From: a bacterium
Lineage (GTDB): Bacteria > Patescibacteriota > Microgenomatia > UBA1406 > GWC2-37-13
DNA: 64,000 bases
NCBI GenBank assembly: GCA_021833625.1
Contig: JAKBEU010000001.1
Span: 124,001 to 188,000, forward strand
Direction of reading: 5' to 3'
The translations under genes were made by a program, and so were the position numbers. Shown here piece by piece: positions 34,552 to 58,578 of this stretch; position 1 is the first letter of the stretch, and each line of letters opens with the position of its first letter. Below the pieces are notes generated by a model, which did not search any database, was not told the origin of the DNA, and saw only the letters and a list, made by a program, of their open reading frames with translations.

Positions 34552-35373
34552 ATGAAAAAACTTATCGTGGTTGCGGATTGGGCCCTTGATTCATTAACAT
34601 GTCAGGAATTTAAAACAGCGCTCCAAGGCTTTTCAAAAAATGCAAAGGATGTTGATGTTTCATTTGTTTCCTCCTCTCCCTCAACACTCCATACCTCCTA
34701 TATCCTTGAACAGCTTATCCGCACTGAAGAACGGTATGGAATCCCCAATGAAACGGTCATTTTTCAAAACACCGACCCCCGTATCCAAACAAAAGAAGGT
34801 GTCAAACAGGCAAAGGGTGCTGAATTTATCGTAATTCGACTTAAGTCCGGTATATTTCTTTGCGGACCAAACGCAGGGTATGATTTCTCCCTCCTTAAAA
34901 ACAAAATTGAATATGTGTACGGTTATCCGGGTCTTGACCGCGGAAGCCAATTCCGCTCACGCGACCTTTATTCTAGGGTAAGCGCACACCTTATGGATGG
35001 TCTTGAGGATGAGATGGAACTGGAGGAAGAAACGTCAAACTGCATTCCTGAATTGCGGGGATATTTTATCGGACACATCGATAACTACGGGAACATTAAA
35101 ACGACAATAACGAAAGAGGATTTTAAGGGAAAATATGAACTGAATGATACGGTCACAATAACCCTCAATCACGTGACAAAAAAGGCGACATATGTAAGCA
35201 ATCTGTTTGGCGGCACTCCAGGACAACTGGTTATTTATCCGGGATCATCGGGAGACAATGATAATCCCTATCTTGAAATTTCTATTTGGAGACATTTCAC
35301 GGAAGAAAATCCCACAACCGGACTTGCAGAGTTCAATCACCCAAAGCCCGGAATGCAAATAGAGTTAAAGTGA
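34552..35373 (+). CDS. SAM hydrolase-like (SAM hydroxide adenosyltransferase/DUF62) protein
   Basis: 273 residues. The N-terminal domain has I-V-V-A-D-W-A-L-D-S, and an L-C-G-P-N-A-G-Y-D-F-S segment stands where the family has A-P-D-N-G-L-L-S. The C-terminal domain carries G-Y-F-I-G-H-I-D-N-Y-G-N-I-K-T-T-I, close to the family's I-D-x-F-G-N-x-x-T-N-I. The family hydrolyses SAM to adenosine and methionine. Divergence at the Asp motifs makes the reaction uncertain. The stop overlaps convergent nadE by 9 nt. A SAM riboswitch lies 1.4 kb away. Confidence 0.6.
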   Translation: MKKLIVVADWALDSLTCQEFKTALQGFSKNAKDVDVSFVSSSPSTLHTSYILEQLIRTEERYGIPNETVIFQNTDPRIQTKEGVKQAKGAEFIVIRLKSGIFLCGPNAGYDFSLLKNKIEYVYGYPGLDRGSQFRSRDLYSRVSAHLMDGLEDEMELEEETSNCIPELRGYFIGHIDNYGNIKTTITKEDFKGKYELNDTVTITLNHVTKKATYVSNLFGGTPGQLVIYPGSSGDNDNPYLEISIWRHFTEENPTTGLAEFNHPKPGMQIELK

Positions 35374-36775: not shown

Positions 36776-36804
36776 TTGCATTCTCAATTTCACCTGTATA
36801 GAAT
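36776..36804 (+). promoter_or_regulatory. Promoter of the SAM-riboswitch operon
   Basis: TTGCAT (36776-36781), 17-nt spacer, TAGAAT (36799-36804). The predicted start at ~36811 coincides with the first base of the riboswitch fold. Confidence 0.6.
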
Positions 36805-36810
36805 ATCTTA

Positions 36811-36926
36811 TCTATCAAGAGAGATAGGAAGAGACCTGGCTCGTAAGCAACCTATCCGACAACCGACAGATCCTCTTCGATCTGAACGGTGCCACAACCA
36901 GTCCGCACAGTGCGGAATGATGCGCC
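36811..36926 (+). promoter_or_regulatory. SAM riboswitch (SAM-I/SAM-IV clan)
   Basis: It has the clan layout: ATCAAGAGAG, then helix P2 (GATAGG 36823-36828 with CCTATC 36851-36856) capped by GAG/CTC around loop ACCTGG. CAACC segments follow (the last at 36860-36864), then P3 (CAGATC 36867-36872 with GATCTG 36879-36884), the conserved GGTGCCA (36889-36895), and P4 (TCCGCA 36902-36907 with TGCGGA 36911-36916). The P2 loop CTGG can pair with CCAG (36898-36901), reproducing the clan pseudoknot. P1 is short (TATC with GATG, one wobble). It ends 3 nt before the ATG, so translational control is likely; GGTGC could alternatively pair with GCGCC at 36922-36926. Confidence 0.8.
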
Positions 36927-36929
36927 ATT

Positions 36930-38153
36930 ATGGAAAAAATACCAAAAACACTATCAACTGCCTTCCGTCGCTTTCCGGCGGGAGAACGATTTTCCGAAAA
37001 TGAAATACCTCCGCTTCAGGCAATAACGGACCGGCAGATGGTGCAGGCCGTTTCTTGCCCCGGATTTATGCAGCGATTCGATACCGGAACTATTTCTGTC
37101 CAACCGGAATACGTACATCAGTTCAATACACATACACAGGCAAGTGAAGTCGTAAGAACAGGAACGATACTTGACAGGGAAGGAAAACCGTACCAGGTGC
37201 AGTTGGCGCGTGACTTGGCTTCAGTTGGAATTTGCGTAGTTGACCCGGAGTCCAGCCTTCCTATCGTCAAATTGGCCCTAAGAGACAGGAATTTGGACGG
37301 ACATCCCGAGTCTACTTCGCCGTATTATCTCAAAGCGATAGGGGGGGTTGATCGCGCGCATATTCCTAAGCGCTCGTTTCTACTTGGCGAAAGTAACTGG
37401 TACAACTCCGCTCCCGGAGACATTGTTCCTGAGGGCATGAAGGCTGTGGAGTTTTCCATCGTTTCATCCGATCCAAAAAAACTCATAATAGATAGATTGA
37501 ACGGCAAAATAGACAAGCTTCCCGTCAGTCCGAAAAGCCTTGCCGCCTTCATCGATGATCCCTTTGCTCTCATTCCATTCACGGAAATGACAAAGGGCAA
37601 CATCAATCTCTGGTGGAAACACTGGTATCAGATTGTTCAACGCGGCATACGGGAAGGAAAGGAGATTCCTTATCCGGGACAGACGTCCCAAAGAGGATTT
37701 TCAGGATTTTTTGATCATGTTCTTTCACATGTCGGATCCTATCTGAAAAACGAAGGATATACCCATCTCTCAGGTTCGCCTACGTGGTATTACGTTTGGC
37801 ATATGAATATGTCACATGGTTTTGTTCCTCAGGATAGGCAGCAGCACCAGGAAGCGCTCGGTTTTTTTGACAGATTAAACGGCGTTCAATTCAAAACACA
37901 AGGGGGAGAAATAAGAGCGCTTGGTGAAACGGATAAACGCAAACCCCTTCTTTCGTGGTTTGCCGTGGCACCGTTCATGATAGCGCTCCATCCGTCCTAT
38001 GAGCCGGAACTTGATATAAGACCCGAATATCGAGAACAATTTTCCCATATGTACCAAAGCATGAGGGAACAGCTGAAAGGCAAAGACAATTCAACTATAA
38101 TTACGTATCCGTTGTATCCGGGAAGAAACTTATGGCACAACAAACCACTATGA
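36930..38153 (+). CDS. Unrecognised 407-aa protein under SAM-riboswitch control
   Basis: No signal peptide or membrane span is visible, and I recognise no family. The protein looks like a compact mixed alpha/beta enzyme with many aromatic residues; notable segments are G-S-P-T-W-Y-Y-V-W-H-M-N-M-S-H-G-F (~283-299), rich in His/Trp/Tyr, and H-P-S-Y-E-P-E-L-D near 355. The first gene behind a SAM riboswitch usually concerns methionine, SAM or cysteine supply or use. Its stop overlaps the ATG of the next gene (ATGA), so the two act together. A GNAT-like acyltransferase fold is only a guess. Confidence 0.85.
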   Translation: MEKIPKTLSTAFRRFPAGERFSENEIPPLQAITDRQMVQAVSCPGFMQRFDTGTISVQPEYVHQFNTHTQASEVVRTGTILDREGKPYQVQLARDLASVGICVVDPESSLPIVKLALRDRNLDGHPESTSPYYLKAIGGVDRAHIPKRSFLLGESNWYNSAPGDIVPEGMKAVEFSIVSSDPKKLIIDRLNGKIDKLPVSPKSLAAFIDDPFALIPFTEMTKGNINLWWKHWYQIVQRGIREGKEIPYPGQTSQRGFSGFFDHVLSHVGSYLKNEGYTHLSGSPTWYYVWHMNMSHGFVPQDRQQHQEALGFFDRLNGVQFKTQGGEIRALGETDKRKPLLSWFAVAPFMIALHPSYEPELDIRPEYREQFSHMYQSMREQLKGKDNSTIITYPLYPGRNLWHNKPL

Positions 38154-39244
38154 CGCCTCTCCTTCAGCACAAGAAGATGCTTGACTCGTATGCCGAAATC
38201 GGCTGGCATGAAGTAAAAACTTCATCATACATTGACTTAGTCATTAAAGATGCCCCTTTCCAAAAAGGATTTGGACCTTCACAAACGGGAAGGTTGTTCA
38301 AATTAGGAAACGGCACCCGATATATTTTGTTAAGAGCCGATATTGATGCACTCAATACGGCAAGCGGCGTACGGCATATATGCGGACACTCAACACATAC
38401 CGCAGCCCTTATTCAGGCATATTTCCATGCAAAGTCGCATATTAAACAAATAGACAAGGCAAACATATCGCTGTTTTTTTTGTTTCAACCCGCTGAGGAA
38501 ACTTTCCCAAGCGGTGCGAGCGCATTTTTAAAAGCGTGTCCGGACATAGTTGCCCGTTTGTCTGCGGCTTATGCCATACATGTGAGGCCACTCATGAAGC
38601 TTGGTACCATCGGGTTGCAGGAAGGTCCACTGTGGGCGCGGGGTGATTATATGGAAATTGAAGTGAAAGGCACAATGGTTCATATAAAAAATAATTTACA
38701 GGGAAAAGACGCCATTTACGCGTCTTCGCTTCTAGTTGTTGGAATAAAAAAGCTGCAGGCGAGTAGTCCATTAATCCGCATCGGTGTCGGCGTTATTTCC
38801 GGAGGAAGACAAGCAAATACTGTTGCGGACAGTGTATTACTGAAGGGGGATATTAGGTTGCCAAATGACACGTATCAGCACAAGATAAAGGAAAGATTGA
38901 ACGCTCTTATCCGGTCCGTCGAAAAGAAAACCGGCACACATATCCGGCTTGACTACTTTGACGGAACTCCTCCCGTTATAAATGACAAGAAGATTACCCG
39001 TTCCATAACGCAGTATCTGATGAAGCGGCATAGCACGCCGTTTTCAATCCAGAAAGAAAAACAATTTTCCTATGGATGTGAGGACTTTGCTTTTATCTCC
39101 CAAAAAGTTCCTTCAACCGTTGCCTTAATCGGTACCGGGGATACGCACGATCTTCATGAAGAGCATTGTACGATTTCCGATAAAGGGACGGAGAACGCGT
39201 TCCTCTATTTTAAGTGCGTAATTGACTCCCTGCTCTCCGGCTAA
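38150..39244 (+). CDS. M20-family amidohydrolase (M20D type)
   Basis: About 364 residues, close to M20D amidohydrolases (N-acyl amino acid, hippurate or acetyl-DAP deacetylases). The metal site shows C-G-H-S-T-H (78-83), with Ser where C-G-H-D-x-H is usual. The catalytic Q-P-A-E-E (113-117), H-V-R-P and the late H-D-L-H-E-E-H are present. A dimerisation domain lies at ~165-280. I chose the ATG at 38150 because it overlaps the previous stop; an ATG at 38132 is possible. In a SAM-controlled operon it may release methionine from N-acyl-methionine or a peptide. Confidence 0.88.
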   Translation: MTPLLQHKKMLDSYAEIGWHEVKTSSYIDLVIKDAPFQKGFGPSQTGRLFKLGNGTRYILLRADIDALNTASGVRHICGHSTHTAALIQAYFHAKSHIKQIDKANISLFFLFQPAEETFPSGASAFLKACPDIVARLSAAYAIHVRPLMKLGTIGLQEGPLWARGDYMEIEVKGTMVHIKNNLQGKDAIYASSLLVVGIKKLQASSPLIRIGVGVISGGRQANTVADSVLLKGDIRLPNDTYQHKIKERLNALIRSVEKKTGTHIRLDYFDGTPPVINDKKITRSITQYLMKRHSTPFSIQKEKQFSYGCEDFAFISQKVPSTVALIGTGDTHDLHEEHCTISDKGTENAFLYFKCVIDSLLSG

Positions 39245-39251
39245 TAACGTC

Positions 39252-39280
39252 TTGCAAAAGAATAGTCGCGCTGTTACAAT
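39252..39280 (+). promoter_or_regulatory. Promoter of rpsB-tsf-frr
   Basis: TTGCAA (39252-39257), 17-nt spacer, TACAAT (39275-39280) with an upstream TG (extended -10). It ends 8 nt before the rpsB ATG, leaving no room for the conserved S2 leader that regulates rpsB in other bacteria. Confidence 0.75.
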
Positions 39281-58158: not shown

Positions 58159-58578
58159 ATGAACACGGAAACAATAGTACTTGCCGGATTAAGCATGCTG
58201 GGGTGGGGAGTGGGAGCGTTCTTTTCCAAACTCGCCACAAACCATATCGGTGAGCGGTCGGTATTTTGGGATATGGTGGGCTATGTGCCGTTTGTCATAC
58301 TCTACTGCGTGCTCACCCTCAAACCGAAATCATTTGTCGAGCATGACAAGATGGGGGTATTGTTTGCATTGCTTGCCGGCGCTATCGGATCGGTCGGGAT
58401 TATCGCATTTTATCTTCTCGTCGCAAAAAAAGACGCGGGAATCGCAACGGCCGTTACCGCCCTCTATCCTGCCGTCACCGCTATCCTTTCGTTTATTTTT
58501 CTCGGGGAAAAACTGACATTTTTAAAGGGATTTGGTATTATTTTGGCCTCAGTCGCACTATTTTTGCTTGCATTATAA
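58159..58578 (+). CDS. Single EamA-domain (half-size DMT) transporter
   Basis: 139 residues with five hydrophobic spans, one EamA unit instead of the usual two. The W-G-x-x-x-F-x-x-K-L segment opens the domain, and the T-A-V-T-A-L-Y-P-A-V-T-A-I-L-S-F-I-F-L-G-E-K-L end is the classic EamA signature. Half-size members work as dimers. Substrate unknown; the family exports amino acids, sugars or drugs. Confidence 0.87.
   Translation: MNTETIVLAGLSMLGWGVGAFFSKLATNHIGERSVFWDMVGYVPFVILYCVLTLKPKSFVEHDKMGVLFALLAGAIGSVGIIAFYLLVAKKDAGIATAVTALYPAVTAILSFIFLGEKLTFLKGFGIILASVALFLLAL

Follow-up and report, generated by a model that had tools for sequence, protein, structure and literature searches.

Organization of the locus

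The window, by which we mean the whole 64-kb stretch of DNA analyzed, comes from the genome of an ultra-small bacterium (G000; 99.6% complete, three contigs). Within it, a promoter, a structured RNA and two overlapping genes follow one another on the forward strand. The promoter (36776–36804) consists of TTGCAT at 36776 and TAGAAT at 36799–36804, separated by 17 nt. A generic promoter scan made no call for this site, which is aligned and conserved 5' of the metK riboswitch in the two other genomes of the genus that we compared, G048 and G049. Next comes a SAM-I type aptamer (36809–36926), which leaves a gap of 3 nt to the ATG at 36930. This ATG opens the operon's first gene, gene X (36930–38153), which encodes a 407-aa protein. 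The codons for the invariant C-terminal Asn-Leu-Trp of X occupy 38127–38135, and the ATG of the second gene (38132–38134) spans Leu-Trp, 22 nt before the end of the X gene. The second gene (38132–39244) encodes a 370-aa M20D amidohydrolase and is followed by a promoter-like site of rpsB (39252–39280).

A divergent SAM-I riboswitch

The Rfam SAM model (RF00162) aligned to 36809–36926 of the forward strand over its full length (model positions 1–108), with 22.7 bits and an E value of 0.0072 in a permissive search of 301 nt against all Rfam families. The gathering score of RF00162 is 44.4 bits, and no Rfam family reached its gathering score at 36809–36926. RNAs linked to metK in this genus likewise scored below 44.4 bits with RF00162 (30.5 and 28.5 bits), which indicates that this threshold misses the lineage. 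We note that the Rfam check proposed with the original prediction gave no match at the gathering score, and that membership was settled by a lineage model. This covariance model, R2, was built from the SAM RNAs of 17 relatives with the window RNA left out; its source RNAs, most of which precede metK, were taken from low-scoring RF00162 matches among 83 genomes of the same order, many of them directly 5' of metK. R2 found a single match in the 64-kb window, at 36809–36926 (78.6 bits, E = 2.1e-16). Across the order, it located RNAs at 30 places in 25 of the 83 genomes, with one copy only in the window genome, and this divergent, lineage-wide set of SAM riboswitches is largely missed by the Rfam threshold.

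The original prediction had placed a SAM-clan RNA at 36811–36926, ending 3 nt before the ATG and with a loop pseudoknot, and the RNA, the spacing and the pseudoknot are all present. The aptamer comprises P1 (36813–36816/36919–36922), P2a (36823–36828/36851–36856), P2b (36831–36833/36840–36842), P3 (36858–36864/36888–36893), an extension of P3 (36867–36872/36879–36884) and P4 (36903–36908/36910–36915), and every one of these helices pairs in the window. The loop pseudoknot pairs CTGG (36836–36839) with CCAG (36898–36901) in the window, and it covaries in relatives. In the 17-RNA alignment, the structure including the pseudoknot was 95.6% paired, and changes on both sides of a pair occurred in 14 out of 23 pairs, the pseudoknot among them. 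The covariation score of this alignment was reached by none of 500 shuffles, and all slid versions collapsed. The SAM-I core letters, those that touch SAM in known SAM-I structures, were invariant or nearly so in this alignment. Together, the RF00162 homology, the R2 match and the covariation make the SAM-I identity of this RNA secure, and we interpret 36809–36926, from these comparisons, as a genuine but divergent SAM-I riboswitch that presumably binds SAM.

Exchange of metK under a retained riboswitch

In both G048 and G049, the same RNA lies at the same locus, adjoining nadD on the opposite strand, and drives metK, the gene for SAM synthetase. The rpsB side of the metK locus is visible in G049 only, as the G048 contig ends there. 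The promoter (TTGCAW-17-TAGAAT) and the RNA can be aligned in all three genomes. Homology between the window and its relatives runs as far as CATTAT, where the X start codon lies, and vanishes over X and the M20D gene. Homology with G049 resumes at GGCTAATAAC, which includes the M20D stop codon and lies just 5' of the promoter-like site of rpsB, with the conserved rpsB promoter region next. Because the junctions fall on the X start codon and the M20D stop codon, we interpret this pattern as the exchange of a coding cassette with the control region kept. Judged by this comparison of aligned sequences, X-M20D occupies the former place of metK under a retained riboswitch.

We considered whether the RNA is a decayed relic and do not favor this reading. 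Although the letters of the P3 extension and P4 are largely different between the window and G048, P1, P2a, the P3 extension, P4 and the pseudoknot are all still paired, so the RNA has not decayed since the exchange. Separately, the metK gene of G049 contains an in-frame TAA at an A-rich site (L080, about 1300–1370), and the metK gene of G048 (L079) has an assembly gap at the same place, flanked by a short duplication. These two features may reflect error or decay.

Protein X

Protein X had been described as a 407-aa protein of no known family, and this description holds, as neither X alone nor X with its homologs had a relative in Pfam, NCBIfam or the PDB sequences. Homologs occur in seven genomes, all from one Patescibacteria family, and database-named members include a Candidatus Roizmanbacteria MAG and the Patescibacteria MAG FK_Sedi_A_Bin.200. 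Outside the family, no homolog was found in the other genomes sampled from the class (373 searched) and phylum (380 searched), or in plasmids or IMG/VR contigs. A candidate relation to a phage ORF (E = 0.04) was rejected as chance: the ORF is asparaginase-like and does not match the X profile. One family member, in G062, carries an in-frame TGA within LRDR*DDG (L043 / L084, G062:C54), and the aspartoacylase-like partner gene beside it also contains a stop; these stops may mark pseudogenes, errors or recoding.

Motifs in the X alignment include LRDRxxDG, ExS, PGQ...G...LL..G..(H/Y)L...PTW and a C-terminal YPLxPxxNLW. In a reading by eye, the elements of X follow an order like that of GNAT acyltransferases, and an acyltransferase or ligase nature of X is a guess that we base on motifs read in this way. 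AlphaFold models from a three-sequence alignment were of low confidence (pLDDT 42 for the full length and 47 for residues 62–407), and Foldseek searches with these models gave no meaningful match. One specific version of the guess makes X a LuxI- or FeeM-like acyltransferase. With SAM or an amino acid as its substrate, it would produce an N-acyl signal or a lipid amino acid, which the hydrolase would turn over. The ExS[R] motif, the helix-strand-helix order seen by eye and the presence of N-acyl-amino-acid type hydrolases as partners are consistent with such an enzyme. However, at E values up to 10, X matched none of the Pfam GNAT, autoinducer synthase and FeeM families, and hhalign against six LuxI-type acyl-homoserine-lactone synthases of soil bacteria gave a nonsignificant probability of 0.15%, so we regard this version as very improbable.

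The original prediction also expected the riboswitch to stand before homologs of the pair. This expectation failed: no SAM riboswitch was found near the six other X operons, and the RNA was absent at every other homolog of the pair that could be checked. The riboswitch is thus not intrinsic to the pair and belongs to the locus.

Hydrolase partners and gene overlap

The predicted M20D partner is borne out by its match to TIGR01891 (172.6 bits, E = 1.3e-50), above the curated cut-off of 153.75 bits. Among PDB sequences, its closest relative was YxeP (1ysj, E = 5e-26), with CGH, QPAEE, IHV and the C-terminal LHEEH aligned. The metal-site residues, which we take to be Cys, His, Glu, His and His as in ILL2 and YxeP, are kept in this alignment.

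The gene pair recurs with a varying second member. In all seven genomes, the X gene overlaps the next gene, which encodes an amide hydrolase, an arrangement in keeping with the translational coupling that had been proposed. The partner is of the M20D family in the window genome, G036, G038 and G068 (called by TIGR01891, with G036 below the curated cut-off and G038 assigned by PF01546 and likeness), PepT-like M20 in G050 and G056 (TIGR01883, below cut-off) and aspartoacylase-like in G062. In six out of seven genomes, the hydrolase ATG is formed by the invariant Leu-Trp codons of X (TTA or CTA followed by TGG). A conserved start site that feeds unlike hydrolases suggests that X and its partner work jointly, and that one hydrolase can take the place of another provided that it cleaves the same type of bond. 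The resulting rule, one enzyme without assigned function plus any amide-cleaving enzyme, narrows the choice of assays for function. In G056, a methionine gamma-lyase-like gene lies directly upstream of X.

The same RNA at other loci

A parallel arrangement was found in G053, a genome without metK. Here, the same RNA lies 5' of an ATP-grasp-like gene that overlaps an aspartoacylase-like gene (L076 5753–7844, G053:C79). The ATP-grasp-like call was made by eye from NxR and GG motifs, with no Pfam match, and no relation was found between this protein and X. Homologs of the ATP-grasp-like gene adjoin isoaspartyl-peptidase-like genes (by eye) in G051 and G065, both also without metK. As annotated from these comparisons, the combination of a metK-less genome, a SAM riboswitch, an enzyme without a family match and a coupled amide hydrolase is found twice in the family.

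Other targets of the RNA, apart from metK, were varied. They were a homocysteine S-methyltransferase in G054, HIT-like proteins (by eye; 257–258 aa, no Pfam match) in G070 and G071, a histidine phosphatase in G077 that also matches guanylate kinase weakly, and small proteins without an assigned family in G005, G034 and G060. The HIT-like gene of G071 (L077 3533–4309) lies at the same nadD-rpsB locus, and that of G070 (L078 3688–4461) lies just after metK. The best-scoring SAM riboswitches of the order (G034:C40 and G005:C4) precede a protein of about 136 aa that belongs to no known family, encoded on the minus strand of L013 at about 1091–1501 in G034:C40, with its G005:C4 counterpart on L012; the homologous frame of G005 has no ATG.

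Absence of metK and SAM supply

Neither the bacterial nor the archaeal MetK (PF02773 / PF01941) was found in the window genome, and neither domain occurs in the X-M20D pair. The genome does encode RsmH, which is SAM dependent. Across the order, metK is patchy, present in 34 out of 83 genomes and without a match in the other 49. A search of the available literature for Patescibacteria work on these riboswitches or on the loss of metK returned nothing of use. In Rickettsia, SAM is imported via EamA, and metK is pseudogenised in most species (PMC5615194). Given that the Rickettsia importer is an EamA protein, a 139-aa EamA half-transporter of the DMT superfamily encoded in the window at 58159–58578 is a possible lead for SAM uptake. 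The window also encodes, at 34552–35373, a protein like SAM hydroxide adenosyltransferase (SAM_HAT) that fits known families poorly. We rejected this gene as a part of the system, since it belongs to the core genes of the order (64 out of 83 genomes).

The association between X and metK absence was not significant. Six out of seven X-bearing genomes lack metK (p = 0.14), and G068 has both X-M20D and metK. Pooling genomes that carry X or the ATP-grasp-like gene gave p = 0.03 against metK absence, a post hoc value uncorrected for relatedness or completeness. Together with the six X operons that lack the RNA, G068 and the p value of 0.14 suggest that the link between X and SAM comes with the locus.

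The main rival to our interpretation is hitch-hiking: once metK had gone, the pair may have settled downstream of an existing promoter, leaving the riboswitch as a leftover whose SAM control has no physiological meaning. In favor of this rival, the other X operons lack the RNA, the control region was kept exactly in the exchange, and the RNA is known together with X from one genome only. On the other hand, the core, pseudoknot, P3 and P4 of the RNA are structurally preserved despite their changed letters, and G053 provides a second metK-less genome in which the RNA precedes an enzyme without a family match and an amide hydrolase. We consider a leftover switch possible but doubtful.

A stronger role for the pair would be as a functional substitute for metK in a MetK-independent route to SAM or methionine. 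It could, for instance, liberate methionine from conjugates that the cell has taken up, and this methionine would then support SAM import or exchange. The exact positional replacement of metK under a SAM switch would fit such a route, as would a genome that lacks metK yet encodes a SAM-dependent methyltransferase. However, metK coexists with the pair in G068, and most of the 49 genomes without a metK match also lack X, which makes SAM import the simpler general answer and the MetK-independent route improbable. It also seems unlikely that X with an exchangeable amidohydrolase represents a new system that gives MetK-less Patescibacteria methionine or SAM from an amide-linked source, under a riboswitch inherited from metK, with the G053 pair as a second, independent solution.

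Proposed mechanism and significance

Our preferred reading, to which we give a probability of about 0.5, is that a SAM-controlled pair of X and a hydrolase replaced metK and handles an amide-linked, likely sulfur, amino acid. The metK-type SAM-I riboswitch was retained when metK, the coding part of the locus, gave way to X-M20D. As is usual for this riboswitch class, binding of SAM would stabilize P1, whose 3' strand ends a few nucleotides 5' of the start codon, and would block translation of X, while the hydrolase, with its start codon inside X, would follow by translational coupling. A translational OFF switch is likely given that the aptamer ends 3 nt from the ATG and that the start codon also lies within or next to P1 in relatives (metK in G008, G076 and G025; also G034). 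Terminator-like hairpins were seen by eye between the RNA and the gene in G045, G054 and G077. The 16S 3' end of the window genome keeps the anti-Shine-Dalgarno CCTCC, and no Shine-Dalgarno sequence is evident before X.

Our directed guess at the biochemistry is that the pair forms and hydrolyzes an amino acid conjugate of N-acyl or peptide-like type, in which the amino acid is probably one that contains sulfur. X would probably make or reshape the conjugate, and the hydrolase would release the amino acid from the same amide-linked compound. Since the pair would be made at low SAM, in an organism without a recognizable MetK, its most likely role is to recover or handle methionine or some other sulfur amino acid. 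Much as first suggested for this operon, the pair may salvage a sulfur amino acid from an N-acyl or peptide-linked form, or cycle one through such a form.

The finding is more interesting than first stated because metK has apparently been replaced in a genome that lacks it. SAM riboswitches reliably mark methionine and SAM genes. The one described here marks a nameless protein family, in the very position of metK, within a genome without a recognizable SAM synthetase. The locus therefore gives a tangible starting point for asking how Patescibacteria without MetK acquire SAM or methionine, and it hints at a means of handling sulfur amino acids or SAM that has not been described before.

Comparison with known systems

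Pairs such as LysX/LysK and ArgA/ArgE work by protection and deprotection, combining an amide-forming enzyme (an ATP-grasp or an acetyltransferase) with an M20 hydrolase. The ATP-grasp-like and aspartoacylase pair of G053 invites the same comparison. X-M20D differs in that neither a carrier protein nor genes for amino acid biosynthesis lie next to it, and in its SAM riboswitch.

In the scm operon of Bacillus subtilis, which salvages S-(2-succino)cysteine, N-acetylation by YxeL is the pathway's first step and is followed by deacetylation by the M20D enzyme YxeP, which deacetylates N-acetylcysteine (PMC9706529). The window M20D is closest in the PDB to YxeP, and the two systems share the pairing of an enzyme with a deacylase and a sulfur amino acid context. 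However, X is not recognizably an acetyltransferase, no YxeK-like monooxygenase or transporter lies beside X-M20D, and a SAM riboswitch precedes the pair.

Compared with the SAM-I riboswitch (S-box leader) of RF00162, the window RNA has the same P1–P4 layout, the K-turn side of P2, the loop pseudoknot and the invariant core letters. It differs in reaching only half the gathering score, in its very short P1, in having no terminator and a start codon that adjoins P1, and in a target that is not a known methionine gene. Relative to the sister metK operons of G048 and G049, the window carries X and M20D instead of metK, with no MetK elsewhere in the genome, but it shares with them the same promoter, the same RNA and the same flanks, nadD and rpsB.
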